Positions 5,200-36,607 of a stretch of DNA of 42,243 nt are shown here, piece by piece. Below the pieces are notes generated by a model that worked only from the letters and a program-made list of their open reading frames with translations, was not told the DNA's origin and ran no database searches. The position numbers were made by a program, and so were the translations under genes. Position 1 is the first letter of the stretch, and every line of letters starts with the position of its first letter. The DNA is from Diaphorobacter caeni (GTDB lineage Bacteria > Pseudomonadota > Gammaproteobacteria > Burkholderiales > Burkholderiaceae_C): the NCBI RefSeq assembly GCF_015354245.1, contig NZ_JADKYZ010000017.1, positions 1-42,243 on the forward strand, read 5' to 3'.

Positions 5200-5269
5200 G
5201 ACGTTGTTTGACGTCATCTAACGTCATTCGGTGTGATCGCACGTCATGGAGTTACCCCGCACGTCAATC
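5200..5269. repeat. 10-bp periodic ACGT array A (7 units)
   Basis: Seven consecutive 10-bp units, five with an ACGT core (GACGTTGTTT, GACGTCATCT, AACGTCATTC, ...), in perfect 10-bp register. It lies between the stop of the 5264-5767 membrane gene and the leader of the 4148 gene. Confidence 0.85.
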
Positions 5270-5767
5270 GTTCTTCCAGTACAGGACACCATCATTGCAA
5301 CGCCATCCCGTTTGAGGATCTGAAGAGGTGAACAAGCCCGTTTTCACTGGGTCACGTTTCTCCACCACTTTGCATTGATGGTCTGCCACGAACTTGTCCC
5401 ATTCAACACGCGTGGCATCCTCTCGCGCACGGGCCTCCGATACGGTGTCCCTGGCAACCTTCGCCGTCTCTTCCACGTAGTCAGGAATGAACTTGGCAAG
5501 AAGGGTCGCACCACCAATGAACCCACCGAATGCCAGAGCAAGCTTCAAGAAGAATAGATTGCGGCCCTGCTTTGGATCATCCTTGCGAAACTGGCTTGAA
5601 ATCATCGAAAGGCTCGTGGAGAAAGCCAACAGCATCCCCAAGCCCAGCACGATTCGCGAGCTCCATGAAGCTATATTGCTGGCCTCTTGCGGTGCTAAGC
5701 CAGCGAAAAACATCGCGAGCACGAAAGCACCAGTAATCACAGTACCGACAGTCACAATAGCTTGCAT
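5264..5767 (-). CDS. Membrane protein, 167 aa
   Basis: Three hydrophobic segments (about residues 4-24, 36-56, 73-93) precede a charged, coiled C-terminal region (VARDTVSEARAREDATR) and a final Cys-containing stretch. Unrecognised function. The start ATG 5767 is preceded by AAAGGTCGTT, a modest ribosome-binding site. Its last codons overlap the first unit of ACGT array A. Confidence 0.75.
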   Translation of the reverse strand: MQAIVTVGTVITGAFVLAMFFAGLAPQEASNIASWSSRIVLGLGMLLAFSTSLSMISSQFRKDDPKQGRNLFFLKLALAFGGFIGGATLLAKFIPDYVEETAKVARDTVSEARAREDATRVEWDKFVADHQCKVVEKRDPVKTGLFTSSDPQTGWRCNDGVLYWKND

Positions 5768-5784
5768 AACGACCTTTCTGACAG

Positions 5785-6156
5785 CTATCTTGCGAAATCA
5801 TCGTTCCCAACAAGGGACTCAGTTGCGATGAACCAATAGCGGCCACGACCGCCAACGGCATGTCCATCACGTTCGGCCTCTCGGCGTGCAAACTTATTTG
5901 CCTGCGCTTTGCTTGCCGCGTGAATGCTGGGATAACGGATTCCGTCCATTTCATCCCATGCCGGGTACTCAAAATGCATCACAACATCGAATACCTTCAG
6001 GGGCTTGCAGAGTGGCATGAATGCGATTCCCAATGCCTGCTCAACCTCATGAAGGGTGCCCACGATTTCAGGCTTGTCATAGCCCTGCGTGAAGGCGTAA
6101 AACTTCCCGTTTCCAAGCGCCCCAATTCGCGGGTCAAGATGTGTCGTTTGCATCAT
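5785..6156 (-). CDS. Hypothetical protein, 123 aa
   Basis: Unrecognised soluble protein with a basic, Gly-rich C-terminal half (GGRGRYWFIATE). It lies 17 bp upstream of the membrane protein at 5264-5767 and is probably co-transcribed. The first Met (MMQTT) or the second could be the start. Confidence 0.65.
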   Translation of the reverse strand: MMQTTHLDPRIGALGNGKFYAFTQGYDKPEIVGTLHEVEQALGIAFMPLCKPLKVFDVVMHFEYPAWDEMDGIRYPSIHAASKAQANKFARREAERDGHAVGGRGRYWFIATESLVGNDDFAR

Positions 6157-6235
6157 GACTGAATTCTGTCGCTGACATCAGATTTCAGCAAACTGCGTGT
6201 GCAGCTTCGACACAGCGTGACGGCATTGGTATGAG

Positions 6236-6664
6236 CTATTCCTTGCTGAGTCTCAAATTGTGAATGCGACCTTGGGCCGCAAGTTGGCAAATCTGTTCGA
6301 CGTCCACAAGTTCAGCCCGAGGAAGCATGACCTCCAGTTGGGTCAATCCGAAGTGGGTGAGGCGAACCGCTCGAATCTGTTTCCACTCCTTGCGCGACTT
6401 GGCATATTCAGCCGCATCAATGCCCACGATGGCACTCATGTAGCCATACAGGTACTGCTCTGCCCACAGCAAGGCCATGCGTGCCGTTTTACGCTGCTCT
6501 GGCGTGAACTTCGAAGGCTTGATCCCCTTCAGAGCATTGAGCTCAATGCACGCTTGTCGTGCTTCATCAGCATCCGGGCCTTCGCCATCGTAGGCTTGCA
6601 CCATATCCTTACGATCCGAAATGGCGTAGGGAATGGAGCGCTTGAGGGCAGAACCAAGATACAT
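6236..6664 (-). CDS. Hypothetical protein, 142 aa
   Basis: Unrecognised; starts MYLGSALKRS, mixed helical composition, no membrane span. I used ATG 6664, close to the end of the upstream membrane-protein gene (6673-6909); the much longer in-frame extension would overlap that gene. Likely part of the same leftward operon. Confidence 0.65.
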   Translation of the reverse strand: MYLGSALKRSIPYAISDRKDMVQAYDGEGPDADEARQACIELNALKGIKPSKFTPEQRKTARMALLWAEQYLYGYMSAIVGIDAAEYAKSRKEWKQIRAVRLTHFGLTQLEVMLPRAELVDVEQICQLAAQGRIHNLRLSKE

Positions 6665-6672
6665 GATGATTC

Positions 6673-6909
6673 TCACGCCCAGCGCGAGCGATAGATCCCG
6701 AGGATGCTGGTTGCTGTGAAGCCGACTTGCTGCAGCAGCAATCCATTGCGCTCCAACCCCAGCGCTAGGCCGATCATCGCAAAGTTGGCCAGAAGGAAAG
6801 CGACCCAGCCGAATTTCGATGCACGAGTGTTTGTCGCCAGCAGAAACGCTCCGAGCAAACCCAGACCGCATCCACTCCACTCAAGAGCGTTCAACATCGC
6901 ATGTCCCAT
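6673..6909 (-). CDS. Small membrane protein, 78 aa
   Basis: Three hydrophobic stretches (about 12-26, 33-49, 58-72) with the ending GIYRSRWA. The overall pattern resembles small plasmid-coded membrane proteins distantly like PnuC, but I cannot assign a substrate. Eight bases separate it from the next leftward gene. Confidence 0.6.
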   Translation of the reverse strand: MGHAMLNALEWSGCGLGLLGAFLLATNTRASKFGWVAFLLANFAMIGLALGLERNGLLLQQVGFTATSILGIYRSRWA

Positions 6910-6945
6910 TTCAGAATCTCATTATTGGGGGTTGGCAAGTGCCGA

Positions 6946-7134: not shown

Positions 7135-7142
7135 GGTCATCC

Positions 7143-7517: not shown

Positions 7518-7630
7518 GGCCTCTGCACCTCAATCAATGATTCGATACATTGAATTTTGCGAGTTCGCAAGGTGCAAGGCAAATGACGTGTGCAACGTCG
7601 ATATTTAGTTTCGACCTAGCTACTTTCCCC

Positions 7631-7930
7631 TTATTTCGCTACACAAGATGCTGTTGGCACGAGAAAAAGCAGAGCTTGCGCAAGGGCGCATACAGCAGCG
7701 CTGTAAGCGGCATATGAGTTCCAACGTGACTGCTCATTAAACGTGTCATGGAGGTCTATGCGTTCACCGTTCTTACCTTGAATAATGATGTCGCCATCCA
7801 ATAAAGCGCCAACACCGGATGTTCTGCTGTCAGCAAGCACCTTGGCTCTAGCTGATTTGACCCAAAGAAATGCTGACGTTACAGCAGACAAAACAACCAC
7901 CACAGTCAATACAAACTTCAAAATCTCCAT
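7631..7930 (-). CDS. Membrane protein, 99 aa
   Basis: Hydrophobic segments at residues 4-23 and 75-94 flank a central polar region (DGDIIIQGKNGERIDL). Good AGAGGA ribosome-binding site before ATG 7930. Function unknown. The flanking gaps 7518-7630 and 7931-8090 show nothing else I can identify. Confidence 0.65.
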   Translation of the reverse strand: MEILKFVLTVVVVLSAVTSAFLWVKSARAKVLADSRTSGVGALLDGDIIIQGKNGERIDLHDTFNEQSRWNSYAAYSAAVCALAQALLFLVPTASCVAK

Positions 7931-8090: not shown

Positions 8091-9755
8091 TTAGGTCACG
8101 AGGTAGAGATGCCCAAACTCAGCATCATCTTTCTCCTTTGCTCCAACCAGCATAGGCATCATCCAGATCAGCTTACGCAAGGAGCGCCCCTGCCCGTGCA
8201 CCTGGTTGCGCCAGTGACCCCTGCGCCAGTGTGCCGCCATGCCGCCAACAGTCGTCCCGGCCAAGTTCAAGCGATCTCGCTGTTCTGCAATGCGCTTTCC
8301 ACAAATGTGGACAGGAACATAGCCCAAGGCAGATAGCTTGGAACGTGCACGAGCTTGTTCCTTCCCCACGCCGGAGACCGCCTTCTTCAGCAAAGCATCA
8401 GGCGTGCCAGCAGGCCAAGCAGTATCAATGTCGTCTGGGTAGGCGGCGACGTAGCACAGCGCATTGACGACCAACTGGATAGCGGCCTTGTAGACCGGAA
8501 AACGGAGACGCGTTACGTCCTCGCGGACACCAGCCATTTGGGGGCCAATATCTACCAGATCCAGATCCTTCGGAATCTCGTGCCCTGTAGCCGCCGCCTC
8601 GGCTTGAACCTCCTTGGTGATATTTCCTCCCGCCCTTTCCTTGGCCTTCCCGATTGCGGCCAGTCGCTCCGCCAGTACGGTGTCTATGGCCGTGGCCAGG
8701 TCCATGGTTCGGAACTCGCCCACGAAGTCCTGACTGAACTCCGGTTCGGGCCGGACGAACCATTTTTCAGAATCCGCGTGGTCCTTTGGCATGGCGGTTA
8801 CGGTGATGCGCAGGTCTCCCACCTCACCCCGTTGTTCGACGTAGGCACCGTCCACCAGCCATCCTGGCTCAAGCTCCAGTTCAGGCTGCGGGCCGAAGTG
8901 AACATATTGTGAGGCGTATGGCATTCGGATCGTGTTTAACGGAATGTCGTCAATGTCGGTCTTCGACAGCATCTCCGTGAGACTTGGCGGAAAGTCCATG
9001 ATTTGCCTTCCGGCCTGCACAAATCGGCCATACGCAGTGCACAGAGTCTGCTCGGCGTCGACGATGAGCGACGGTCCTGGACCATCAAGCGTCAGGCGCC
9101 GGGGGTGGTTCATTGCTTTGGCATTGAGTTCCCGCACGACATGCCCCATGGATTCGTTGAGTTGATCAATGGTCATGAATCCTGTCCGAGGATCTACTCT
9201 TTGCCGGAACATCTTGCCAATCGTCTCTGCATAGGTTCGGTTGGCCTTGTAGCGCTCAGGGTGGTAGCGGTACATCGGTGGTTCGGCTCGTTCATTTGAT
9301 ATCGGCGCACATTCGTAGAAGGCCAGGTCAAACTGATCGGCCACAAGAACGTAGGCCATCACAGGATCTTCGACGGATTGGGTCCATCGATCCCACACGA
9401 CGCGTCCGGCCCGCCGATCTTGCCAACCTAGTTCCATGGTTACCTCCGGACCGTGGTTGGTGACCTTCAGATAGTCTAGATAGTCGTTCATCCCCTTCAA
9501 AAACGTATGAAGGTTTTCCAACGACTCCACCACCTTGAGGAACAAAGCATCTTGCTCTTCGGTAGCGTCCCAATTAAATTGCCCTTGACGCTGATCGTCA
9601 CCACCGTGAATATCCAACGATGGGTCTATCTCAAAGAGGGCAGCGTATGCCTTTCCGAGTGCAGCCACCTTTTGCGGGCTAGTCTGGATCAGACGGGTGT
9701 ACGCCTTCAAGTCAGGGTTGTACCGTCTGCCAAAGAGGGTTTTTACACTTTCCAT
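8091..9755 (-). CDS. Large unrecognised protein with C-terminal HWRRGHWR motif, 554 aa
   Basis: The largest gene in the leftward array and not a family I can name. Its C-terminal third matches the 14948-16084 protein: a VNALCYVAAYPDDID block, then HWRRGHWRNQ, then a KLIWMMPMLVGA block. The repeated His-Trp-Arg element could bind metal or nucleic acid, but that is inference. The N-terminal ~400 residues look like a separate mixed alpha/beta region with no motif I recognise. No good ribosome-binding site precedes ATG 9755. Confidence 0.8.
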   Translation of the reverse strand: MESVKTLFGRRYNPDLKAYTRLIQTSPQKVAALGKAYAALFEIDPSLDIHGGDDQRQGQFNWDATEEQDALFLKVVESLENLHTFLKGMNDYLDYLKVTNHGPEVTMELGWQDRRAGRVVWDRWTQSVEDPVMAYVLVADQFDLAFYECAPISNERAEPPMYRYHPERYKANRTYAETIGKMFRQRVDPRTGFMTIDQLNESMGHVVRELNAKAMNHPRRLTLDGPGPSLIVDAEQTLCTAYGRFVQAGRQIMDFPPSLTEMLSKTDIDDIPLNTIRMPYASQYVHFGPQPELELEPGWLVDGAYVEQRGEVGDLRITVTAMPKDHADSEKWFVRPEPEFSQDFVGEFRTMDLATAIDTVLAERLAAIGKAKERAGGNITKEVQAEAAATGHEIPKDLDLVDIGPQMAGVREDVTRLRFPVYKAAIQLVVNALCYVAAYPDDIDTAWPAGTPDALLKKAVSGVGKEQARARSKLSALGYVPVHICGKRIAEQRDRLNLAGTTVGGMAAHWRRGHWRNQVHGQGRSLRKLIWMMPMLVGAKEKDDAEFGHLYLVT

Positions 9756-9772
9756 TTTGAGTATTCATATGT

Positions 9773-26791: not shown

Positions 26792-26868
26792 TTTGATCAC
26801 TCCTTGAATGTGCCCTCACCGGAATTGGCGGGTAGGCGGTCATGTGCAAGAAAGTCATCGGTTGCGCC
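26792..26868 (-). promoter_or_regulatory. Conserved cassette leader (copy 4)
   Basis: GGCGCAACCGATGAC, GCACATG, CCGCCAATTCCGG and CAAGGAGT in the standard order. The leader frame is one base out of register with the gene. No ACGT array lies beside it. Confidence 0.7.
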
Positions 26869-26972: not shown

Positions 26973-27236
26973 TCAGCCGCCTAAACGAGCTGAGATGTCA
27001 CGTAACCATTTTTCTTGAGCTTCTGAGAGCTGCCTGTGCGTTGAGATGCAGGTTCTACACGACAGAATGAAGCTACGTTCACGCTCAGGAAGCCTTTCGT
27101 AGGCATCAAGGCACTTGTTGAGGTGTCCTTGTAACTCCGCGTCTTTCTTCGCTTGCTTCTCTTCGGCCTCTTCGCGTTCTCTCCGAACTTGCTCGCGGAA
27201 CACAGGGTCGTTCAATTTGTTGAAGTCGATTGGCAT
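26973..27236 (-). CDS. Coiled-coil hypothetical protein, 87 aa
   Basis: Highly charged N-terminal helix (REQVRREREEAEEKQAKKDA) and a Cys pair (SCRTC) in the middle. It starts 3 bp after the 27240-27572 gene, so both are on one message and translation may be coupled. Function unknown. Confidence 0.7.
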   Translation of the reverse strand: MPIDFNKLNDPVFREQVRREREEAEEKQAKKDAELQGHLNKCLDAYERLPERERSFILSCRTCISTHRQLSEAQEKWLRDISARLGG

Positions 27237-27239
27237 TGA

Positions 27240-27572
27240 TTACTCCTTTGCTTGCCGAACGAGTTCATCGTGTGCTTCATCACGCACAACAAACTCTTGG
27301 CCGGATCTCACACTCACTTCGGTCACGATGTACCCGATTGCGTCTTCCGAGTAGTGATTTCGGAAGACCACAAATCCGCCGTCCTCTTCTTCAATCGTCC
27401 AAATCCGTGCTGGAGTTTCGTTGAGAACCTTGCGAATGTACTCATCCTCAACACCGTAGGTTTCATACATCCAGCCGCAGAATGATGCTTTGTCGCTTTC
27501 AACCAAGTGATTGGCTTCAGGCTTGAACGTGGCTTCGAACTCTTCGATAGAGATGGTGGTCACTGATGACAT
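27240..27572 (-). CDS. Hypothetical protein, 110 aa
   Basis: MSSVTTISIEEFEATFKPEA start, alpha/beta composition with acidic patches. ATG 27572 after AAGGAG. Preceded by a cassette leader and ACGT array B, and followed by the 87-aa gene. Confidence 0.75.
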   Translation of the reverse strand: MSSVTTISIEEFEATFKPEANHLVESDKASFCGWMYETYGVEDEYIRKVLNETPARIWTIEEEDGGFVVFRNHYSEDAIGYIVTEVSVRSGQEFVVRDEAHDELVRQAKE

Positions 27573-27648
27573 TTGGGTTTCTCCTTGAATTTGCCCTCGC
27601 CGAAATTGGCGGGTAGGCGTGCATGTGCGCTATGTCATCTGTTGCGCC
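27573..27648 (-). promoter_or_regulatory. Conserved cassette leader (copy 5)
   Basis: GGCGCAACAGATGAC, GCACATG, CCGCCAATTTCGG and CAAGGAG before the 27240 gene. Array B lies 13 bp upstream. Confidence 0.7.
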
Positions 27649-27660
27649 GTCTGAGTGGAA

Positions 27661-27770
27661 AACGTTCTTTGACGTTATATGACGTTGATTGACGTCAATC
27701 GATACCGGCTCGTGTAAATGGACGTCATTGAACGTCAGATGAGCTCATGTGACGTGTATTGACGTTGAGG
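27661..27770. repeat. 10-bp periodic ACGT array B (11 units)
   Basis: Eleven 10-bp units in one register, eight with ACGT (AACGTTCTTT, GACGTTATAT, GACGTTGATT, GACGTCAATC, ...). Sits between the terminator of the 27857 gene and the leader of the 27240 gene. Confidence 0.9.
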
Positions 27771-27801
27771 CCATCCGCTCGTTGTGATGCGATCGCTCAT
27801 G

Positions 27802-27840
27802 AAAAAAGCCCAGCTCAACCGAAGTTGAAGCATGGGCTTT
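27802..27840 (-). terminator. Rho-independent terminator (family copy 6)
   Basis: AAGCCCA / TGGGCTT stem with a CTTCGG loop region and T-run on the minus strand, after the 27857-28480 gene. Confidence 0.8.
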
Positions 27841-27856
27841 GATTGAGCTGGGAAGC

Positions 27857-28480
27857 TCAGTTTGCGGGAACGCCAAGCAGCTCTTCGAGCGTCAGCATTT
27901 CGATCGTGAGTGATTCATCCTTATCGGGTTCATACTCGGAGTGCAGAAGCTTGATGGCTTCTTCTTCAGTGGGTTCATCAACGGACCAAAGGATGTACGT
28001 CGTTTGGCCGTAGTTGTGTCGATGAGTGATCGAGTACGGATTCTTGTGATCAAGACTTCGTGCATGCTGAAGATCGGCTAACGCCTTGCAGCGAACCGCT
28101 TGAGCCTGTGCGTTGATGCCATCGGCAATAGACTTGAGATGACGCATCCCAAGAACGTACTGCTCAAAGTCTTTGACGACCTCATCAACGATGTTCTTCA
28201 GATCGCTGTCTGTTGTTTGAGTCGACGACACAATGATCTGACTCTTGAAGTGAGCACAGTTCACCCTGTACAACCCATCCGGCAAGCGAGTCACGATGCA
28301 GCCGAAGCTGAAGCCATCGGGCTCATCACGACTGAAGTGGACCGAATGGATGCCGTCTCGTACCTGAAATGGCTCAGCTTGAAGTTGATGTGACGCCATC
28401 AACTCCAGAAACTCAGCTTCAGGAATGCGAACCACATTGAACCCTGTGTTAGCGCCCTGCTCCTTTGACTGTTGATTCAT
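27857..28480 (-). CDS. Hypothetical protein, 207 aa
   Basis: Unrecognised soluble protein with a possible helical middle (DSDLKNIVDEVVKDFEQYVL). Cassette leader, array C and a terminator flank it. AAGGAGT before ATG 28480; the leader frame ends with a TGA overlapping this ATG. Confidence 0.75.
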   Translation of the reverse strand: MNQQSKEQGANTGFNVVRIPEAEFLELMASHQLQAEPFQVRDGIHSVHFSRDEPDGFSFGCIVTRLPDGLYRVNCAHFKSQIIVSSTQTTDSDLKNIVDEVVKDFEQYVLGMRHLKSIADGINAQAQAVRCKALADLQHARSLDHKNPYSITHRHNYGQTTYILWSVDEPTEEEAIKLLHSEYEPDKDESLTIEMLTLEELLGVPAN

Positions 28481-28560
28481 TTCGAATACTCCTTGAAAGT
28501 TAAAAACCCGTGCCGGGATTGGCTTCGGGACAACATGTGCAAGGTGGTATCTGTTGCGTC
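28481..28560 (-). promoter_or_regulatory. Divergent cassette leader (copy 6)
   Basis: GACGCAACAGATACC and GCACATG retained; the hairpin is replaced by a different one, and CAAGGAGT is kept. The internal ATG opens a 19-codon frame that stops over the gene's ATG. Confidence 0.6.
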
Positions 28561-28575
28561 ACAGGAGGTCACCCG

Positions 28576-28655
28576 AACGTTCTTCGACACTGAATGACGT
28601 CATGTAACGTCAAATGACGTTCTTTAGAGTTAATGCACGTCGATGCACGTTTCAT
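28576..28655. repeat. 10-bp periodic ACGT array C (8 units)
   Basis: Eight units in 10-bp register: AACGTTCTTC, GACACTGAAT, GACGTCATGT, AACGTCAAAT, GACGTTCTTT, AGAGTTAATG, CACGTCGATG, CACGTTTCAT. Confidence 0.9.
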
Positions 28656-28664
28656 GCAAGCATG

Positions 28665-28704
28665 AAAAAACCCAGTCGCATCCGAGGATGTGAGCTGGGT
28701 TTTT
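28665..28704 (-). terminator. Rho-independent terminator (family copy 7)
   Basis: AACCCAG / CTGGGTT with an inner CATCC / GGATG arm, T-run on the minus strand, after the 28707-29615 gene. Confidence 0.85.
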
Positions 28705-28706
28705 GG

Positions 28707-29615
28707 TTAGAACGCAATCAACTGATCGGCCATAGAGGCGACAGGCGATTGCTTCGGTGCCGGAGCTGCAGGAGCTTTGACCACAGGTTGTGCCTGAGGA
28801 TCTGGGCTCGGGAGCTGAAAGCCTTTGCTATAGAGAGCAAAGGGATTCATCAACTGCTCACAGAGAGCATTCAGCAGCAGCACTTGCGATGGACCGATCG
28901 ATGGCGACTGGTCCAGTGTTTTGCAAACATCGGAGATAACCTCGTGCACGTTCTGAATCTTCGGAGACAGAAACGCAAACGAGCTCGCCTTGTCAGCAAT
29001 ACGAGCCAAGACCTGCAGGCCACGTTTGGTGTACTTTTCAGCAGCACCATCCATACCGGCATCCATCAAGGTTGCCTTGATTTCACGAAGTACCTGCATA
29101 GGCATGTCCGTGATTTCATCTTCGATAGAGGTGGTCTGCTCAAGATCATCGGCATTCAAGCGATACACAGCGAACAAGAACTTCGTTGAACGAAGGATGC
29201 TTTCACTTGTGGGTGCCAGGTCATAGATGGCCTGACGATTGCTTGGATTCCTGTCGGCAAATTCCCTCACGACGTTGCCGATCTTGTCAGCCAGCTCGGT
29301 CGTGTAGGCATACCAGTCTTCGCGATTCTTTTCCAAGATGGCACTGACTTCTGCGACTTTCTCGGGCGAGATGGCCCAAGCGCCCAGAGAGTCGATGCGG
29401 GTTCCGTAGTTGCGGCATACACGGCTGCAGTCAATCTTGATGCGATTGAATGGTCGCAGTGTCGCAGCATCCACACAGCGTTGCAGCACCTTTTCCATAC
29501 GACCTTCGCTTTCACTGCTGCCGAGGCCTGTGTCTCGGACGGCGGAGAAAGTGCGAGTCTGGAAAGTCACGAGGCTGCAGTTTTGCAGCAATTGTTCTGC
29601 GCTGACGGTTGTCAT
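28707..29615 (-). CDS. DUF3150-like hypothetical protein, 302 aa
   Basis: N-terminal LLQNCSLVTFQTRTFSAVRD resembles the start of DUF3150 proteins of plasmids and phages, which often sit near a CobS-like AAA+ ATPase. No such ATPase is in this window, so the assignment is tentative. The C-terminus is Pro/Ala-rich. It has a cassette leader, and its upstream region contains arrays D and E and a G-rich segment. Confidence 0.5.
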   Translation of the reverse strand: MTTVSAEQLLQNCSLVTFQTRTFSAVRDTGLGSSESEGRMEKVLQRCVDAATLRPFNRIKIDCSRVCRNYGTRIDSLGAWAISPEKVAEVSAILEKNREDWYAYTTELADKIGNVVREFADRNPSNRQAIYDLAPTSESILRSTKFLFAVYRLNADDLEQTTSIEDEITDMPMQVLREIKATLMDAGMDGAAEKYTKRGLQVLARIADKASSFAFLSPKIQNVHEVISDVCKTLDQSPSIGPSQVLLLNALCEQLMNPFALYSKGFQLPSPDPQAQPVVKAPAAPAPKQSPVASMADQLIAF

Positions 29616-29682
29616 GATGCGTTTCCCTTTTAAAGATGCCTCAATCGAGGCGGTTGATGTGCAAGGGGTCATCTGTTGCGCT
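29616..29682 (-). promoter_or_regulatory. Divergent cassette leader (copy 7)
   Basis: AGCGCAACAGATGACC and GCACAT are retained, but the conserved ATG is lost (ATC) and the Shine-Dalgarno is AAAAGGGAAA. The ATG inside the GATGAC element opens a frame in register with the gene. Confidence 0.55.
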
Positions 29683-29703
29683 GGGTGATATCCGTCATCG
29701 CAT

Positions 29704-29843
29704 CACGTTCATTGACGTTATTCGACGTTGATTAACGTCACTTAGCGTCATAGGGTATCTTTCGACGTAGACACACGTCATGCAGCGTGACTGCACGTCA
29801 ATACACGCCGGGAAACTTCAGATCACGTCTCGCGGCGTGCATG
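29704..29843. repeat. 10-bp periodic ACGT array D (14 units)
   Basis: Fourteen units in exact 10-bp register, nearly all with ACGT or GCGT cores (CACGTTCATT, GACGTTATTC, GACGTTGATT, AACGTCACTT, ...), upstream of the 28707 gene. Confidence 0.9.
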
Positions 29844-30046
29844 CAGGATCCGCACCGGCAGGGCAGCGGTGCCAGCAGCCTGCGACATGTGGCCGATGTG
29901 TGGGGCCGATGAGTGGGGCAGGGGCGTGGGGCAGGGGAGTGGGGCAACTGCAGCGTGGCCTGCGCACCGTGGCGTGTGCTGTGTGGCCGGTGCGTGGGGC
30001 CGGTAGTTTGTGGCTGGGAAATGTTTGGATGTTCGTCGAAGCCATT
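29844..30046. repeat. G-rich segment with quadruplex-forming runs
   Basis: 13-bp tandem-like GTGGGGC repeats on the + strand. Between 29902 and 29944 there are six GGGG runs; the last five are separated by only 2 to 3 bases, a strong G-quadruplex motif. It lies between ACGT arrays D and E. Its right half (CGCACCGTGGCG, GTGTGGCCGGT, TTTGTGGCTGGGA) is repeated at 32487-32535. No gene is seen here. Confidence 0.75.
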
Positions 30047-30106
30047 GACGTTAACTGACGTCATTCAACGTTCTTTAACGTCACAGAGCGTCAGGCCACG
30101 TCAGGC
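30047..30106. repeat. 10-bp periodic ACGT array E (6 units)
   Basis: GACGTTAACT, GACGTCATTC, AACGTTCTTT, AACGTCACAG, AGCGTCAGGC, CACGTCAGGC in exact 10-bp register. Confidence 0.9.
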
Positions 30107-30109
30107 ATG

Positions 30110-30146
30110 AAAAAACCCGCGACATACCGAAGCATGTGCGGGTTTT
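30110..30146 (-). terminator. Rho-independent terminator (family copy 8)
   Basis: AACCCGC / GCGGGTT stem with CATGCTTCGGTATG top and T-run on the minus strand. It ends the tiny unit at 30167-30253. Confidence 0.85.
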
Positions 30147-30166
30147 GGGGTGGAAGCTTGATGCTT

Positions 30167-30229
30167 CTACGCGGCAACAGTCTCGGGAAGTTGCCAGCCG
30201 GTCAGTTCCTGGAAGCGCTCATTGGTCAT
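30167..30229 (-). CDS. Tiny ORF in a minimal cassette, 20 aa
   Basis: MTNERFQELTGWQLPETVAA with an AAAGGG site, bounded by a GGCGCAACAGATGAC element upstream and a terminator downstream. It could encode a micro-protein, be the leftover C-terminus of a deleted cassette gene, or only mark a ~140-nt small RNA. Confidence 0.4.
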   Translation of the reverse strand: MTNERFQELTGWQLPETVAA

Positions 30230-30253
30230 GTGCCCTTTGTCATCTGTTGCGCC
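30230..30253 (-). promoter_or_regulatory. Cassette element (copy 8), GCGCAAC part only
   Basis: GGCGCAACAGATGAC followed by AAAGGGCACATG; the hairpin part is missing. Array F lies 13 bp upstream. Confidence 0.55.
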
Positions 30254-30266
30254 TCAGTGAGGCCTT

Positions 30267-30356
30267 AACGTTTTTTGACGTCAATTCACGTCAAACGACG
30301 CCCTACGACGTTCATCAACACCTCCGAACGTCAGCGCACTCCTGTTCACGTCAAAA
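30267..30356. repeat. 10-bp periodic ACGT array F (9 units)
   Basis: AACGTTTTTT, GACGTCAATT, CACGTCAAAC, GACGCCCTAC, GACGTTCATC, AACACCTCCG, AACGTCAGCG, CACTCCTGTT, CACGTCAAAA in 10-bp register, overlapping the end of the 30351 gene. Confidence 0.85.
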
Positions 30357-31064
30357 CGCCCTTCGAAAGTCATTCCAAACGCCCACTTGGGGCGAAGTAA
30401 AACCCAGTGCGGCCAGTTCCTTGATCGCACGGCCAATGTCTGGAACTCCGAATGCTCCCAACGCAAGATCCGCCGTGCCTACGTGGGCGGGCAGGGCGCT
30501 CTCCCAGCCGTCGAACAGCGGCCACGGCGCGAGCTTCTGCGACTGGTCCTGATGCTGGACTCGAAACCAAGCCTGTCCGTGTGGAGAACGCAACAACGCG
30601 ATCGAGTAGTTCCTTGGGTGTTGCCACGGCCAGGGCGACGAGGCCACTCGGCGCGTGACTTCTGGGGCGGGGAAGGCATACATCGACTGTGGGGTAGGGC
30701 GGGGCGCTGCCGGTTCAAGTCTGGACGCCTGCATGGCATTCATGCTGCGCAGCCTCTCCCTATTCCGTGCCTCAGTTTCGATCTTGGCCAACTCCCATTT
30801 GGCGAGCAATGCAGCCGTATTGCTGTCCAGTAGCGCCGCATCCTCTGCGCTGATCTTCCGGCCACCCCCCATGTACTGCGGACGGCCAAGCGCGTGCTCG
30901 CCGCCGTAGATCTCAGCAAAGCACGTCGATCCCAACACCTTCACCCGGCCATCGTGCTCAACGACATGGATGGCTGCGTATACACCATGCCCACAGCCGT
31001 CCTTTTGGCAGCGGACCCGTTGAACCTTCTCCACACTCACCACAGCCAACAACCTCGGATTCAT
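30351..31064 (-). CDS. Zinc-binding-like protein, paralogue of 23981-24748, 237 aa
   Basis: Shares the QRVRCQKDGCGHGVYAAIHV block, the VLGSTCF block and the YGG..ALGRPQY stretch with the 255-aa protein, so both carry the same presumed metal site. ATG 31064 follows GAGAGAAGG. Three ACGT units (array G) lie 15 bp upstream, with no cassette leader. Function unknown. Confidence 0.75.
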   Translation of the reverse strand: MNPRLLAVVSVEKVQRVRCQKDGCGHGVYAAIHVVEHDGRVKVLGSTCFAEIYGGEHALGRPQYMGGGRKISAEDAALLDSNTAALLAKWELAKIETEARNRERLRSMNAMQASRLEPAAPRPTPQSMYAFPAPEVTRRVASSPWPWQHPRNYSIALLRSPHGQAWFRVQHQDQSQKLAPWPLFDGWESALPAHVGTADLALGAFGVPDIGRAIKELAALGFTSPQVGVWNDFRRAF

Positions 31065-31079
31065 GGCCTTCTCTCGAAT

Positions 31080-31109
31080 GACGTTCAATGACGTCGATTG
31101 ACGTTAGTT
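31080..31109. repeat. 10-bp periodic ACGT array G (3 units)
   Basis: GACGTTCAAT, GACGTCGATT, GACGTTAGTT in register, between the stop of 31104-31478 and the start of 30351-31064. Confidence 0.8.
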
Positions 31110-31478
31110 CTTCTTCATCACATAGACCGGCTGTCCGCCGAGCTGGATCATCTCCATTCCTGGCGGCGGCAAACGATAGTCGCGGATCTGCGTGTTCCTC
31201 ACCAGCTCGACGGCCTCATCCAGTGATGCAACATATCCCCAGTTGGTTGAGCGATCCCACGCACCGAAATCAAGGCACCGAATCACGTACCTTCTCTCTT
31301 CACCATCGCCGGACGTCTTGATAAACGGGCGCAACTCCCAGCGCATCAAATCCTCGGGCGAACGATCATCGTTTGGCGTCGAATCAAAATCCACCGGCAG
31401 CACTGGATCAATCAATATTCCGTCTACACAGTCAGCCGCCAGATACTTGTGGCCGTCCAACTCATACTGCTTTTTCAT
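31104..31478 (-). CDS. Hypothetical protein, 124 aa
   Basis: MKKQYELDGHKYLAADCVDG start, acidic, with a C-terminal PPPGMEMIQLGGQPVYVM segment. It lies between the toxin-antitoxin terminator and array G. Unrecognised. Confidence 0.7.
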   Translation of the reverse strand: MKKQYELDGHKYLAADCVDGILIDPVLPVDFDSTPNDDRSPEDLMRWELRPFIKTSGDGEERRYVIRCLDFGAWDRSTNWGYVASLDEAVELVRNTQIRDYRLPPPGMEMIQLGGQPVYVMKKN

Positions 31479-31492
31479 TCACGTTTGCCCAT

Positions 31493-31534
31493 AAAAAAAT
31501 CTCCCAGAAACACCGAAGTGTTTGCTGAGAGATT
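31493..31534 (-). terminator. Rho-independent terminator (copy 9)
   Basis: AATCTC / GAGATT stem with an inner AAACACTTCGGTGTTT hairpin and a T-run on the minus strand, after the antitoxin gene. Confidence 0.9.
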
Positions 31535-31538
31535 TGGT

Positions 31539-31892
31539 TCAAGCGGTGGCAAGTTCGGCTTCATGCTGATCTTGCGTGCTTGTCTCCGTTGTCAATGTCA
31601 CACGCCAATTGAGGCGTTGAGCGAAGACAACCAGTGCATCCAGTGAGAACATGGATAGCTTACCCGTCATCAGATTATTGGCGCGTGTACGCGTCACACC
31701 GAGCAATTGCCCGATTTGTGTCTGATTCAGATTTCGACTCCCGAGCTCACCGACGATTTTACTCATCAGCGCAGCTTTGGGATCCAGCGCATGCTTTGCA
31801 GCATGGCTTTTCTTCATGTCGGCAATTACTTGATCATGTTCAGGACCGAATTCATCCCACGGTGTCGCAGGTTGGAACTTGTCTTGGAGCAT
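31539..31892 (-). CDS. higA: HigA-like XRE antitoxin, 117 aa
   Basis: HTH region LNQTQIGQLLGVTRTRANNL followed by a MTGKLSMFSLDALVVFAQRL block is typical of HigA/XRE antitoxins. ATG 31892 has AAGAGG 5 bp upstream; a GTG at 31898 overlaps the toxin stop. Probably neutralises the upstream-encoded HigB-like toxin and represses the pair. The order is toxin first, as in higBA. Confidence 0.8.
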   Translation of the reverse strand: MLQDKFQPATPWDEFGPEHDQVIADMKKSHAAKHALDPKAALMSKIVGELGSRNLNQTQIGQLLGVTRTRANNLMTGKLSMFSLDALVVFAQRLNWRVTLTTETSTQDQHEAELATA

Positions 31893-31894
31893 AG

Positions 31895-32323
31895 TCACCT
31901 CTTCAAATAAGTTTTGATGTTCCTTTTGAGAGTATCCAGCTCTGTCGTCGGCATCTTGTTGGATTTCTTGATGTATGTGTGCATCAAGACAAACTCAGGT
32001 GCTTTCGACTCTGGATTTCTCGCGTAGGGAGCCAATAAAAAACGATAGAAATGTTCAGGGTCATCCACAGATAACTGATGTATTGCAAGAACAGTATCCA
32101 GCGGAAAATTCTTTTCAGAAAATTTCACTGGAGGCCAATTCTTTACAAACTTCATCTCTTGCTGCATCGGAATCGCTTCTTGAATTGCTTCATAAAGCTG
32201 TGTCCGTTCACTCTCACAGACATATCTTGCGATCGTCCCAAATGAATAGCGAACATGCTCCGGATAAGACCTCAACGTTGCCAGCGAAGATCCCAACATA
32301 ATTAGTTCGCGATATCTTACCAT
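31895..32323 (-). CDS. higB: HigB-like toxin (RelE/HigB fold), 142 aa
   Basis: N-terminal IMLGSSLATLRSYPEHVRYS and C-terminal FVLMHTYIKKSNKMPTTELD match HigB/Gp49-type ribosome-dependent mRNA interferases. An insert of about 40 residues (near KNWPPVKFSEKNF) makes it longer than the usual ~110. ATG 32323 follows AAAGAGG. The frame stays open back to an ATG at 32407. A separate 16-codon leader frame (ATG 32367, strong AAGGAG) ends overlapping this start. Confidence 0.7.
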   Translation of the reverse strand: MVRYRELIMLGSSLATLRSYPEHVRYSFGTIARYVCESERTQLYEAIQEAIPMQQEMKFVKNWPPVKFSEKNFPLDTVLAIHQLSVDDPEHFYRFLLAPYARNPESKAPEFVLMHTYIKKSNKMPTTELDTLKRNIKTYLKR

Positions 32324-32367
32324 CGTGAACCTCTTTGTGTATAGGTTTCGATACCCCCTTTTGTCAT
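32317..32367 (-). CDS. Leader peptide overlapping the toxin start, 16 aa
   Basis: MTKGGIETYTQRGSRW, with an excellent AAGGAG site, and a stop inside ATGGTAA that overlaps the ATG of the HigB-like toxin. It could couple or limit toxin translation. Confidence 0.4.
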   Translation of the reverse strand: MTKGGIETYTQRGSRW

Positions 32368-32432
32368 GATTTGTACTCCTTGAGAATGCCTCGGTTAAGG
32401 CGGTCATGTGCACTAGGTCATCGATTGCGCGG
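32324..32432 (-). promoter_or_regulatory. Divergent cassette leader (copy 9)
   Basis: GCGCAATCGATGACC, GCACATGACC and CAAGGAGT retained ahead of the toxin-antitoxin operon; the hairpin is reduced to CCTTAACCGAGG. Confidence 0.6.
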
Positions 32433-32543
32433 CTGTGGTGGCAGCGCATGGCGTGGGACAGGGGAGCTGGGGCGCACTCGCGGGGCCAACGCACCGTGGC
32501 GGGTGCAGTGTGGCCGGTGGTTTGTGGCTGGGACATGTTGAAT
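32433..32543. repeat. G-rich segment, second copy
   Basis: GGG/GGGG runs at 32455-32457, 32461-32464, 32469-32472 and 32482-32485, a possible quadruplex. Then CGCACCGTGGCG, GTGTGGCCGGT and GTTTGTGGCTGGGA, closely similar to 29964-30020. It separates array H from the toxin leader. Confidence 0.7.
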
Positions 32544-32799
32544 GACGTTGAATGACGTCAATTCACACCGGGCAACGTTGAGCGGCGTGCAATGACGCCC
32601 AACACCTTGCACTGACGCATTTTGGCGTTGGGCAACGCTACTGCATATTGATTCACGTCGCTCAGCGTGCCGTGACTCCGTTTCGCGTTAGGGAGCGTCG
32701 GGCAACTTCGAATGACGTTCAGTGACGTCAACTCACGTTTTGGGCAGAGAACGCTGACCAACGTCGATTGACGTTAATCCACGTCGGCTTACGCCTTTT
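32544..32799. repeat. 10-bp periodic ACGT array H (~25 units)
   Basis: The longest array. Twenty units run in 10-bp register from 32544 to 32743 (GACGTTGAAT, GACGTCAATT, ...), then after a 6-bp slip five more run from 32750 to 32799. It overlaps the last codons of the 32789 gene. Many units are decayed (GCGT, ACGC). Confidence 0.85.
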
Positions 32800-33487
32800 T
32801 GGATGTGGCATTGATGTTTCCATACAGGTCGGCGCGAGGCCTTTTCTCCGGTTCAATGTGCGCGTTCTTGTCGATGATCTCTTCGACTTCTCGGAGGGTC
32901 TGGACGTACTCATCAAGGTTCGCGTTTCGCTCGCGAAGTATGGACTTCAACTTTTCATCGATCACAGCGTTGTGCGATTCGATGTTCTTGTTGTGCAACG
33001 CCGTTTGGATTCCCACCGTCCTGCGGAAATTGGCGATCAGGTCCAGTGTGCCTTGGCGCTTCTCGATAAGGCCACGTTGCGTTTGCAGCAGATCTTTCAG
33101 GCTGTCACGGATGAGATTGAACACCGTGCTCCTGGGGATGCGAAGGATGACTTCGTTGGACTGAATCCGCTCGTACAGCAGCTTGCCGTTTTTGGTTTGC
33201 TTCCACTGGATGAAGGTCGGGTGGCGCGAATCCGAGGTAATTCCGCGATGCTGCAGGTAGCGCACAGCGATTTTTCCGTCGATGGACGGCTGCAGGATCT
33301 CAAGTGCGTAGGCGTACTTCTCAATCAGCAAATCCAGCTCGTACAGGGTCTGGTAGATGGCACGCGTGGAGAGAATCAGGCGGTCTTGTTCTACCTGTTG
33401 GCGGGTAGGGCGGTACCGCATTGAGCCTGATTTATCGGGCCATGTGAGATCACCGTCGTTTGCAGCTTCGGGTGCTGCTTTCGTCAT
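32789..33487 (-). CDS. Coiled-coil hypothetical protein, 232 aa
   Basis: Predominantly helical and charged (LREVEEIIDKNAHIEPEKRP) with no known family. ATG 33487 has AAGG upstream. Divergent from the ParM operon. Possible roles are a DNA-organising or replication-accessory protein; neither is supported beyond location. Confidence 0.65.
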   Translation of the reverse strand: MTKAAPEAANDGDLTWPDKSGSMRYRPTRQQVEQDRLILSTRAIYQTLYELDLLIEKYAYALEILQPSIDGKIAVRYLQHRGITSDSRHPTFIQWKQTKNGKLLYERIQSNEVILRIPRSTVFNLIRDSLKDLLQTQRGLIEKRQGTLDLIANFRRTVGIQTALHNKNIESHNAVIDEKLKSILRERNANLDEYVQTLREVEEIIDKNAHIEPEKRPRADLYGNINATSKKA

Positions 33488-33821
33488 AGTTTGATGCCTT
33501 ATTATGTTTCGCCCGAAGGGCATCTTAACATGCGAGCTCATCACCGAAGTTTTTAGCAAAAGTGAATTTTGGGGGAGCCTCAGATTCCGTCTCTCAGTTT
33601 CAGAGATGGCCATCCAACATGTATGCCCTAGCGGTAAATAGAGTTGTTGCGTGAATGCATCGCGCAAAATCCTCTATTTGCGGATTTCCTCTTGTGTTGC
33701 GTGATCGTATATGTACAATGCACATTGTTCATTGCACATAGTTCATTTGCATATGTCCTTTGTACAAAGCACATAGTCAACACACCACAGCAGGGAAACC
33801 ATGAATTAAAGCCCATACTCA
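33488..33821. promoter_or_regulatory. ParM operon upstream region (parC-like) with palindromes and repeats
   Basis: AT-richer than its surroundings. Perfect palindromes ACAATGCACATTGT (33715-33728) and CTTTGTACAAAG (33758-33769). GCACAT-type repeats start near 33720, 33734, 33749 and 33769. The segment GTTGCGTGA occurs twice, near 33645 and 33695. In ParMRC systems the RHH ParR binds such repeats in front of parM. A two-codon frame ATG AAT TAA after AGGGA lies at 33801. Confidence 0.65.
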
Positions 33822-34826
33822 TTGCGAACCGTGATTGGCCTGGACATCGGGCGCAGCACTGTCAAAGCCGTTACCCGTTCAAAGAACGGCAATTCGGCTA
33901 TTCAGGTCATGTTCCCATCCATCGTTGCTCCGGCAATCGAAATATCGACGGATTCAGAACGCAGTAAAGCCGCTCTTGATACCGTAGTGGTCAACGGTAA
34001 AAGCTACTTTTTTGGCGAAACAGCAGCCATTCAATCTCGCGTCGATCTGGATTCAGGCATGCGTGATGACTGGGTTTTTACCGACGAACACCGAGCTCTT
34101 TTTCTCGGCGCAATCAAGCGTTTGAAAAATCGCGGCGTCGAGCGCACCGAAAATGCAATTGTGGTCGTTGGTCTGCCGGGTAAGCACTACAGCAATCAGC
34201 GTGGAGCTCTGAAAGATGATCTGAGCAAGATTTATCCCGAGGGCCAGATCATTGTTTTGCCGCAGCCTCTCGGACCATTTCAATTGATGCAGTTTCAATC
34301 AAATGGTCTAGAATCTGATGAATTGCAACGCCGTGGTAATTCGTGGGGCATTATCGAAATTGGTCAATACACGACTGATTTCTGTGTCGTGTTGAATGGC
34401 CGAATTGTTGAACGCTGCTTTGGCTCTTCAAATGGCATGACAGTGGTTGCAGAAAACCTGCAAAAGCTTCTCGCGAAACGGGGAATCTCAATTGGACTTG
34501 AAGAAGCTTCTCGCGCTTTCGTGAATCGTCAAATCAAACACTTCGGGCAAGTGGAAGACATCGGCGATGAAATCGATCAATCCATTCCTGCGCTCGCTGA
34601 AGACATTCGCGTGAAAGCAAATGCTCTGATGGGTGAACATGCGCGGTCTTTGGATGGCATTTTGCTCGCTGGTGGCGGTGCTCCATTGATTTTCGAACAC
34701 ATCCGCAGTCACTGGCCTCATGCGAAATTGTGTGACGACAGTCGATTTGCAGTCGCTGAAGGCTTTAGCCGCTTTGGAGCAGGTTTCCAGCTTCACAAGC
34801 AAAACCAGACAGTGAAGGCGGCTTGA
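33822..34826 (+). CDS. parM: ParM/StbA-like actin-family ATPase, 334 aa
   Basis: Actin fold motifs: phosphate-1 GLDIGRSTVK (residues 6-15), phosphate-2 IIEIGQYTTDF (177-187) and the adenosine loop ILLAGGGAP (280-288). In ParMRC systems this forms filaments that push plasmid copies apart. The start is TTG 33822 or GTG 33831; no clear Shine-Dalgarno lies at normal distance. Followed immediately by an RHH-type adaptor gene. Confidence 0.85.
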   Translation: MRTVIGLDIGRSTVKAVTRSKNGNSAIQVMFPSIVAPAIEISTDSERSKAALDTVVVNGKSYFFGETAAIQSRVDLDSGMRDDWVFTDEHRALFLGAIKRLKNRGVERTENAIVVVGLPGKHYSNQRGALKDDLSKIYPEGQIIVLPQPLGPFQLMQFQSNGLESDELQRRGNSWGIIEIGQYTTDFCVVLNGRIVERCFGSSNGMTVVAENLQKLLAKRGISIGLEEASRAFVNRQIKHFGQVEDIGDEIDQSIPALAEDIRVKANALMGEHARSLDGILLAGGGAPLIFEHIRSHWPHAKLCDDSRFAVAEGFSRFGAGFQLHKQNQTVKAA

Positions 34827-34827
34827 A

Positions 34828-35304
34828 ATGTCCAAGTGGGTACGCGCCAAGGCCGAACGCGAACCGGGGACGAAGGTACGCATCGTTTTACTCGTGGATC
34901 CCAATGATCCCGAGAACGAGCAATTGATGCAGTTCCACGACTCCCTCCCATACCGTTCGGCCAATCAAACCTATGTGCAGGTGCTGCGCGATCACGCGGC
35001 ATCTGAGTTGGCAGGATCCAGCAAATCCGCGCCACGACAACGGCATGCACCGCAAGCCAAAGCCAGTTATGAAAAACGATCAGTGTCAGTGAGCACTAAT
35101 CAACCCGGCTCCGCTACAGTTTCAGAATCTCGTGGCGTGCAACAAGCTCCTGAGCCTGCACAAACAGTTCCCGCAGCCATTGATGATTCAGCTACGCAAG
35201 CAGCTCACGATAAATCTGATTCGGTGGGCAATGAAACTGCGTCGAGTGGGCATGAAGTTTCATTCTCCGAAACAGCCCAGAGTCACTTCAACATGGTCGA
35301 TTGA
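34828..35304 (+). CDS. parR: ParR-like adaptor with RHH N-terminus, 158 aa
   Basis: The N-terminal region KVRIVLLVDPNDPENEQLMQ then SANQTYVQVLRDHA matches the RHH domain of ParR-type centromere-binding adaptors. The remaining ~100 residues are Ser/Ala/Gln-rich and probably disordered. Starts 2 bp after the parM stop. It should bind the repeats upstream of parM and couple them to ParM filaments. Confidence 0.75.
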   Translation: MSKWVRAKAEREPGTKVRIVLLVDPNDPENEQLMQFHDSLPYRSANQTYVQVLRDHAASELAGSSKSAPRQRHAPQAKASYEKRSVSVSTNQPGSATVSESRGVQQAPEPAQTVPAAIDDSATQAAHDKSDSVGNETASSGHEVSFSETAQSHFNMVD

Positions 35305-35345
35305 CCAACAGCCGTGGCAGCGGCCCAACTTGAAAAGAGGACGAT

Positions 35346-36335
35346 ATGAGCAAAAAAGCAAAGCCCGATCAGAATGTTTTTGTCGATCCGGCTGACTTCG
35401 ATGGTGATATCCCATTCGTTCCTGGCTCATCGCGCACTGCGATGAAGGAACTGGGTGCCAAATCGCAGGATCTGTGGTTCGCACATCCTGATGACATCAA
35501 GGTCTTCGAGCACTTCAATCCACGCACGGACACACCCACTCACTTGGCCTATATCCGCTGGCTCGCAGACCAGATGAAGATCCACGGGTTCAAGCGCGAC
35601 TTTCCACTGTCTGTGGTGGCCGTGCGCAATGAGGATGGATCCAGCTCGCCATTCGTGACGAACGGGCACACGCGTTTGCGTGCTGTGAAGATCGCTCGAT
35701 CTGAGGGCGCTCAAATCGAATCCATCCCGCTCATCTACGTGGAGCAAGGCACGAGCATGGAGGATCTGACGATCGCTCTGTCGCTCTCCAACAGCGGCCA
35801 GCCACTGACGATGTACGAGACTGCCGTCACCTACAAGCGATTGATCACCTTCGGACGCACGCCCGAGGACATCGCGAAAGTGATGGGGCGCTCCTTGGTG
35901 TACGTGGAAGGCCTGCTGATGCTCATTGCGGCCCACCGCGACATCCGCGCCATGGTGCAGCAAGACCAGATCTCCGCAACGCTCGCGATCGACACACTGC
36001 GCAAGCACGGTGTCAAGGCGCTGGACGTGCTGAAGAACGCCCTTGAAGAAGCCAAAGCGAAGGGCGCATCGAAGGCCACAGCCAAGAATGTCCAAGCAGC
36101 TCCAGCTCAACAGCGCCGCAAGGTACTGCACAAAGCTGCGCCGAAACTCTATGACACGCTTGGCGAGATCACCAAGGATCCAGAGTTCAAGTCGATATCG
36201 CCTCAACTGCAGGCCAAGATCGAAGACCTGCTTCTGGATCTCCGCGAGAGTGGTGCCGATCTGCCGGTCGAGGAAGAGCAACCCAACTCCAAAAACTTGG
36301 AGCTCGATCTGCACGATAACGAGGAAACGGAATGA
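35346..36335 (+). CDS. parB: ParB/Srx-domain protein, 329 aa
   Basis: N-terminal ParB-type nuclease/CTPase domain, with FVTNGHTRLRAVKIARSEGA containing the conserved GHxRLxA box. Next comes an HTH-like LTIALSLSNSGQPLTMYETA region and then a KorB-like central domain; the C-terminus is acidic. It lies between ParR and ParA rather than directly after ParA, so its partner is uncertain. RBS: AAAGAGGACGAT. Confidence 0.85.
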   Translation: MSKKAKPDQNVFVDPADFDGDIPFVPGSSRTAMKELGAKSQDLWFAHPDDIKVFEHFNPRTDTPTHLAYIRWLADQMKIHGFKRDFPLSVVAVRNEDGSSSPFVTNGHTRLRAVKIARSEGAQIESIPLIYVEQGTSMEDLTIALSLSNSGQPLTMYETAVTYKRLITFGRTPEDIAKVMGRSLVYVEGLLMLIAAHRDIRAMVQQDQISATLAIDTLRKHGVKALDVLKNALEEAKAKGASKATAKNVQAAPAQQRRKVLHKAAPKLYDTLGEITKDPEFKSISPQLQAKIEDLLLDLRESGADLPVEEEQPNSKNLELDLHDNEETE

Positions 36336-36453
36336 CGTCGATTGACGTCAAGTAACGTCAACTAACGCTGATGCACGTCCAATGACGCCGATAGGTATCA
36401 GCGAACGTCGATAGACGTCAGTTGGCGCTACGCAACGTTGACCGACGTTTTTC
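36334..36453. repeat. 10-bp periodic ACGT array I (12 units)
   Basis: GACGTCGATT, GACGTCAAGT, AACGTCAACT, AACGCTGATG, CACGTCCAAT, ... in exact register, starting at the parB stop and running towards the parA promoter region. Confidence 0.9.
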
Positions 36454-36517
36454 ACGAAATCACACACCGTCCGTCTTGTTGCGCGTTAACATAGCGGAAT
36501 TCGCGCCCAGTGCGCGA
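36454..36517 (+). promoter_or_regulatory. Spacer between arrays I and J, likely parA promoter
   Basis: Contains TTGTTGCGCGTTAACATAG and a perfect inverted repeat TTCGCGC-CCAGT-GCGCGAA (36501-36519). It is the only gap in the ACGT arrays before parA and is the best place for its promoter. I cannot fix the -35/-10 boxes. Confidence 0.5.
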
Positions 36518-36607
36518 AACGTGAATTGACGTTATGTGACGCTAGCACACGTCACGCAACGTGCAAAAACGTCGATTCACGCTATTTGACGTCAAATGAC
36601 GTCGAGC
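36518..36607. repeat. 10-bp periodic ACGT array J (9 units)
   Basis: AACGTGAATT, GACGTTATGT, GACGCTAGCA, CACGTCACGC, AACGTGCAAA, AACGTCGATT, CACGCTATTT, GACGTCAAAT, GACGTCGAGC in register, ending 25 bp before the parA start. Confidence 0.9.

Follow-up and report, generated by a model that had tools for sequence, protein, structure and literature searches.

Analysis of contig NZ_JADKYZ010000017.1 of Diaphorobacter caeni (assembly GCF_015354245.1) revealed 11 arrays of a near-palindromic 10-bp unit close to TTGACGTCAA, two of them on either side of the parA promoter region in a partition (par) gene cluster. The entire contig (C9; 42,243 bp) was analyzed and is referred to as the window; the assembly comprises 5.99 Mb in 34 contigs. 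The periodic ACGT arrays are genuine, and their scale is unusual. As judged from sequence comparison, the arrays are probably the operator and centromere sites of the small protein encoded at positions 37312 to 37791, the partner of a ParF-type ParA (36612 to 37319). The finding would most likely represent a type Ib-like partition partner with plasmid-wide sites.

The tetranucleotide ACGT occurs 177 times in the window. Pairs of ACGT spaced by 10 bp were observed 34 times; in 200 sequences simulated with a first-order Markov model, the mean was 0.38 and the highest count was 3. This bears out the 10-bp enrichment over simulated sequence that a preliminary description of this DNA had proposed as a check. 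Longer spacings were also represented (30 pairs at 20 bp, 24 at 30 bp, 21 at 40 bp, 12 at 50 bp, and 16 at 60 bp), and no 10-bp pair was found outside the arrays in the whole window. A scan for in-phase segments was performed with a position-weight matrix of the 10-bp unit. Because this matrix was trained on the same arrays, the shape that it recovers is circular, and the test lies in the comparison with simulated sequence, not in the score. The 11 segments that the scan yielded scored between 33.8 and 97.2 bits; no segment in 20 simulated sequences scored above 20.1 bits. Together, the arrays comprise 105 unit positions, of which 66 have an exact ACGT core. Within arrays, all 54 steps from one core to the next are multiples of 10 bp, in agreement with the claim of exact one-helical-turn spacing. 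The 39 degenerate units scored a mean of +1.5 bits in phase and -14.0 bits in other phases, and 22 of them keep three of the four core bases (chance, 0.044). The spacers between the cores vary in sequence. All 11 arrays lie between genes, except that four array ends overlap gene calls by 4 bp; 19 genes were called for this comparison, with some starts chosen by eye.

The preliminary description had listed ten arrays with about 100 units. All ten sites were found, but the site at 32544 consists of a 21-unit, 210-bp array and a separate 4-unit array in another phase. Five of the 11 arrays are followed 14 to 24 bp downstream by a shared leader sequence. The arrays are as follows.

5188 to 5267, minus strand: 8 unit positions, before the leftward gene 4148 to 5179 (probable start about 5092, by eye); leader 24 bp away.
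27659 to 27768, minus strand: 11 units, before 27240 to 27572; leader 14 bp away.
28574 to 28653, minus strand: 8 units, before 27857 to 28480; imperfect leader 17 bp away.
29702 to 29841, minus strand: 14 units, before 28707 to 29672 (DUF3150); leader 23 bp away.
30045 to 30104, minus strand: 6 units; the DNA beyond resembles the start of 31895 to 32536.
30265 to 30354, minus strand: 9 units, followed by a leader (15 bp away) and a 20-codon open reading frame (ORF).
31078 to 31107, minus strand: 3 units, before 30351 to 31088.
32532 to 32741, minus strand: 21 units in a single phase, before 31895 to 32536; 97.2 bits.
32748 to 32787, no strand assigned: 4 units in the other phase, immediately 3' of gene 32789 to 33667.
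36332 to 36451, plus strand: 12 units, between the parB-like gene and parA.
36516 to 36605, plus strand: 9 units, before parA.

The last two arrays flank the parA promoter region, as had been described. The second ends 6 bp from the first possible parA start (TTG, 36612) and 27 bp from the likelier one (GTG, 36633). The remaining arrays had been placed upstream of leftward genes, which holds for most: a leftward gene directly follows six of the 11, and three more (32748, 30045, and 30265) lie in leftward contexts. The listed TTG start of ORF 30351 to 31088 falls inside the array at 31078, and a downstream ATG is the likelier start. The stretches at about 29923 to 30025 and at 32450 to 32539 are alike, and the array at 30045 precedes what is probably a truncated copy of the beginning of 31895 to 32536.

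The par region encodes, in this order, a ParM-like actin, a ParR-like protein, a ParB-like protein, ParA, and the small partner. Its features and the adjoining gene are listed below.

32789 to 33667, minus strand: gene whose homologue in Comamonas fluminis likewise has ACGT arrays immediately 3'.
33705 to 33780, plus strand: non-ACGT repeats before parM, candidate parC.
33822 to 34826, plus strand: actin-like ParM, by family match.
34828 to 35304, plus strand: ParR-like small protein, assigned by its position after parM and inspection of the sequence.
35346 to 36335, plus strand: ParB-like protein with an HTH_ParB domain, by domain match.
36612 (or GTG 36633) to 37319, plus strand: parA, ParF/MipZ-type ATPase, by profile matches.
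37312 to 37791, plus strand: ribbon-helix-helix (RHH)-like partner of ParA and proposed array binder, by sequence pattern; 8-bp overlap with parA.

ParA has 235 residues, and its ATPase domain begins at residue 17; it is thus of the short type that lacks an N-terminal DNA-binding domain. The best Protein Data Bank (PDB) match of a six-member ParA profile was ParF (1.3e-19). The protein encoded at 34828 to 35304 gave no family match and no PDB match better than an E value of 0.99.

Relatives of the partner were gathered by searches with ParA, with a two-member partner alignment (A1), and with the partner from UR115. Of five plasmids retrieved because they encode a related ParA, those of Aeromonas caviae and Comamonas thiooxydans are not among the resulting nine members, as their partners do not carry the PW...NL motif, and the partner of a second ParA of Methyloprofundus does not carry it either. 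The family comprises the proteins from the window, C. fluminis, Methylocaldum, Methylobacter, UR115, genome G774, Methylomagnum, Nitrosococcus, and Methyloprofundus. Its signature is PW, a later [FY]NL[RL]L, and then two helix-like stretches. In all nine plasmids or contigs the partner adjoins ParA; in the eight relatives it directly follows ParA or is fused to it. The fusion occurs in Methyloprofundus (L201 24004 to 24855, AP023241.1), where the RHH-like partner domain forms the C terminus of the ParA protein and has SW in place of PW. Clear tandem repeats lie beside parA in six of the nine members, including the window and C. fluminis. The repeats beside parA in Methylobacter, Methylocaldum, G774, and Nitrosococcus are 5-bp repeats of the TATGR type, and Methylobacter has further repeats of this type away from parA, near 17.0 kb and 52.5 kb.

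The C. fluminis plasmid NZ_CP066782 was reached by tblastn with the ParB- and ParM-like proteins. Its par genes are arranged as in the window (ParM, a small protein, ParB, ParA, and a small protein), with extra genes separating ParB and ParA. The C. fluminis ParA is 26 to 29% identical to the window ParA, and in multiple alignments the partners are 23 to 26% identical. The gene at 44570 to 45244 is a homologue of window gene 32789 to 33667 (38% identity over 209 residues; E value, 3e-49). Four ACGT clusters were found, at 39560 to 39631 (before parA), 45244 to 45425 (just 3' of 44570 to 45244), 45673 to 45696, and 47130 to 47180. The last consists of units TGACGTCATA/TCACGTCAAA at 10 bp, with steps of 5, 5, 10, 10, 10, 5, and 5 bp. 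The position of the arrays around the parA promoter, together with the matching position in C. fluminis, links the arrays to parA. Different AT-rich repeats precede parM of C. fluminis, in the place that matches 33705 to 33780 of the window. As controls, seven stretches (240,245 bases) from six plasmids chosen for a ParB or ParM relative were used: two from EbN1 and one each from pACP3.1, Vogesella, pND6-2, p4782_002, and Cupriavidus metallidurans Ni-2. These stretches contained no ACGT pairs at 10 bp.

Several observations weigh against assigning the arrays to the partner. In BLASTP, the window and C. fluminis partners align over only 20 residues (E value, 0.020). The first two C. fluminis clusters are without 10-bp regularity (steps of 28, 5, and 23 bp and of 5, 12, 15, 17, and 22 bp), and because this plasmid also encodes ParB and ParM/ParR, it does not isolate the partner as the reader. 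The control stretches are only parts of their six plasmids, and the Comamonas malaysiensis plasmid, covered in full by four stretches and picked for its ParM, holds two isolated 10-bp ACGT pairs; these lie at 89.4 and 106.9 kb, far from parA (about 70 kb). Four family members carry TATGR at 5 bp and not the ACGT motif, and the TATGR pattern was picked after the par regions had been read. Three of the nine members have no clear tandem repeat beside parA (weak repeats in UR115; none of the TATGR pattern in Methylomagnum and Methyloprofundus). The partner of the window gave no Pfam match, and the best PDB match of a six-partner profile, the RHH repressor Mnt, was nonsignificant (E value, 0.28). 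An AlphaFold model of the window partner domain, run as a single-sequence monomer, was all-helical (predicted local distance difference test score [pLDDT], 87.5). Finally, in a comparison with a same-genus genome (G747), only 1 of 49 mismatches falls inside arrays, which make up 970 of 11,573 bp; about 4 were expected, and this deficit is not significant.

With respect to the fold, the Mnt alignment covers the [FY]NL[RL]L stretch of the profile. NikA-like, Arc, and RHH_7 each match one of the six aligned partners (E values, 0.005 to 0.16). The sole PDB match of the AlphaFold model had an E value of 8.4, and because the run used a single sequence, the model neither supports nor excludes RHH. 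Judged from sequence, an RHH fold of the partner is likely, although the evidence is weak. The preliminary description had spoken of RHH-like plasmid par proteins and had named those encoded at 37312 to 37791 and at 34828 to 35304 as possible binders. The RHH-like character stands as a sequence pattern, with weak support for the fold; as for the binders, comparison favors the first, whereas the second follows an actin-type ParM with its own repeats.

If the partner reads the arrays, one dimer would bind each TTGACGTCAA unit through paired beta strands, and adjacent dimers on consecutive 10-bp units would bind cooperatively on the same face of the helix. Filled arrays at 36332 to 36605 could then form the partition complex that is moved by ParA, as a centromere, and the same arrays could repress the par operon, as an operator. 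Arrays before other genes may repress or tune the next gene, and distant arrays could give ParA extra capture points. By analogy with known systems, it is plausible, and has precedent, that one protein serves both segregation and regulation. More tentatively, one partner acting on more than 12 one-turn arrays might constitute both a distributed centromere and the main gene control network, with the PW...NLRL proteins an undescribed family whose motif shifts between lineages while the half- or one-turn spacing is kept. No report of the array motif or of the partner family was found in the literature searched, parts of which were available as excerpts; this is not proof of absence. If the assignment is true, this would be a clear case in which plasmid inheritance and plasmid gene control rely, at many sites, on a single protein and a single DNA code. 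The related proteins and motifs would be a natural set for the study of DNA choice by RHH partition proteins, and the system would allow a test of whether ParA uses many centromeres per plasmid.

Matches to a two-unit pattern with at most one mismatch are confined to three contigs of the assembly, C9, C13, and C15; at two to three mismatches, other contigs are matched as well. C13 (13.9 kb) has arrays at 6720 to 6856 in three segments, and C15 (9.8 kb) has an array at 9582 to 9621. Open frames read by eye include a TraG-like one on C13 and TraI/HD-like and single-stranded DNA-binding protein-like ones on C15. A TraI/HD-like protein at 3440 to 5890 of L003 carries a long proline-alanine-threonine repeat with a DNA period of 18 bp. 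In G747, one contig is 99.5% identical to the window over 11.6 kb, and the ten arrays located there are kept; its version of the array at 5188 has one additional 10-bp unit (by eye), and the short contig L211 of this genome has one more array.

The shared leader has a consensus of about GCAACMGATGAC-N5-GCACATG, followed in several copies by CCGCCAATTCCGGCG, a possible hairpin, and AAGGAG. On the minus strand of the window, it occurs at 3367 to 3390, 4043 to 4065, 5142 to 5164, 26842 to 26865, 27623 to 27645, 28557, 29657 to 29679, 30228 to 30250, and 32428; further sites lie at 7789 and 10517 of L002 and at 8517 of L003. The ten exact matches are all on C9, C13, and C15, with none elsewhere in the genome, which supports the assignment of the three contigs to one plasmid (unclosed). 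G747 has eight such matches, the other 38 relatives that were searched have none, and four viral-contig stretches contained matches. The leader could be a shared promoter or a leader RNA; no Rfam match was obtained at gathering scores. For three of the nine window leaders the next upstream array is 794 to 1,798 bp away, and for one it is about 100 bp away. Since several leaders are distant from arrays, arrays and leaders are only partly linked. A scan of 27000 to 37500 for the sigma-70 consensus gave two sites, fewer than in shuffled sequences and none at the arrays.

Three other readers of the arrays were considered. The ParB-like protein might read them in the manner of KorB, as operators plus a centromere, which is unlikely. 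Its gene adjoins the array at 36332, it carries an HTH_ParB domain, and C. fluminis has a homologue that is 38.3% identical; however, the 25 to 37 kb around ParB homologues of 37 to 42% identity (EbN1, pACP3.1, Vogesella, pND6-2, and p4782_002) are without 10-bp ACGT pairs, and the sites of KorB-type proteins are as a rule isolated palindromes of greater length. We consider it likewise unlikely that the arrays are transcriptional operators alone, read by another plasmid or host regulator without a role in segregation, comparable to ArdK of R388. The leftward genes that follow six arrays directly and three more by context fit such a role, as do the five arrays at 14 to 24 bp from the leader, but the arrays on either side of the parA promoter region, with the matching position in C. 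fluminis, tie the set to parA, and the restriction of the two-unit matches to C9, C13, and C15 argues against a host regulon. That the arrays are dispersed parC sites of ParM, with the ParR-like protein as their reader, is quite unlikely. Repeats spaced by about one turn are bound by ParR proteins, and 10-bp repeats are mentioned in PMC5016525. On the other hand, parM is preceded by its own AT-rich, non-ACGT repeats (TGCACATAGTTCAT), which lowers the likelihood that ParR reads the ACGT arrays, and no 10-bp ACGT pairs occur in the EbN1 and C. metallidurans Ni-2 stretches that surround a related ParM; the ParR proteins are too diverged for comparison. Chance or low-complexity expansion has a negligible probability: although simple tandem repeats make up most of the 45 top-ranked chained-ACGT loci in public data (not counting those of the window) and a reversed control pattern matched 10 of 399 genomes (own count), the window data refute it through the excess of 10-bp pairs, the differing spacers, and the in-phase degenerate units.

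Assignment of the arrays to the ParA partner places them beside known systems. In delta/omega of pSM19035 (type Ib ParABS), the RHH partner of ParA has six sites of 7 to 10 repeats over the promoters of copS, delta, and omega (PMC9499535). The window may resemble omega in having repeat arrays at several promoters; its 11 arrays lie before or between genes. It differs in that omega of Firmicutes reads contiguous 7-bp WATCACW repeats at three promoters, whereas the unit here is the 10-bp TTGACGTCAA, and the 11 arrays lie mostly before genes of unknown function. In ParF/ParG of TP228, direct and inverted repeats are positioned upstream of the operon, and ParG is an RHH protein (PMC5016525). The likeness to the window lies in ParF as the closest solved ParA relative, in the small partner gene, and in repeats upstream of the par operon. 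The sites of ParG are short boxes beside the operon, and to our knowledge no dispersed arrays are known for it. In R388, direct repeats surround the promoter of StbA itself, other promoters of the plasmid carry fewer copies, and StbA represses several promoters (PMC3098194 and PMC3937220). The proposed likeness to StbA stands for the way of working but not for the motif or the period, since StbA reads TTGCATCAT in 9-bp units spaced by 2 (11-bp period), and the window has another motif at 10 bp. StbA also differs in that the ParA-like StbB is dispensable for stability and in that the system is not a ParA-RHH pair. MetJ is an RHH repressor whose met box consists of tandem ACGT-centered palindromes (AGACGTCT) at 8-bp spacing; it controls a chromosomal methionine regulon and has no partition role.

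Wider searches were performed with the patterns and proteins. A family scan with the partner alignment matched 6 of 399 genomes. Apart from G747 and the genome of the window itself, G774 alone is matched in the C-terminal domain, and the matches of the remaining three genomes fall in the proline/alanine-rich N-terminal part. The partner protein alone matched three of 399 genomes, including G415 (E value, 9.5e-4; residues 11 to 108, with an internal stop). A family scan with a three-unit pattern matched 7 of 399 genomes, with ten forward matches only in the own genome and G747 and one each in five others; the match in G494 precedes an Hsp20-like ORF (read by eye). The four-unit pattern matched only the window's own genome among 399 in an order scan, and matched at least 120 stretches in genome contigs and 43 in viral contigs. 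Some of the top-ranked chained-ACGT loci have diverse spacers; no par genes were seen in the stretches read of three of these (L066, L085, and L107). None of 166 loci compared encodes a relative of 13 window proteins (tblastn, E value of 1e-3). Blastn of the parA-flanking arrays gave nothing at an E value of 1, no relative of ParA or the UR115 partner was found in viral contigs, and the ParR-like and partner proteins had no match in the plasmid collection.

When 27500 to 42243 was compared with the plasmid collection, the 40 records listed of 260 all matched within an IS3 element. This IS3-family element lies at about 40531 to 42108 and contains an ALIL pseudoknot at 41407 to 41523. In C. malaysiensis (NZ_CP017756, L174), another ParA/RHH-like pair is located at about 70.9 to 74.7 kb, with many GATAGC sites before parA; these sites have 11-bp spacing and lie at about 71 to 75 kb, save two isolated matches. 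The ends of the window contig carry repeats of about 105 to 127 bp common to other contig ends, and positions 166 to 1458 hold a UmuC-type polymerase gene of the impB/mucB/samB family.

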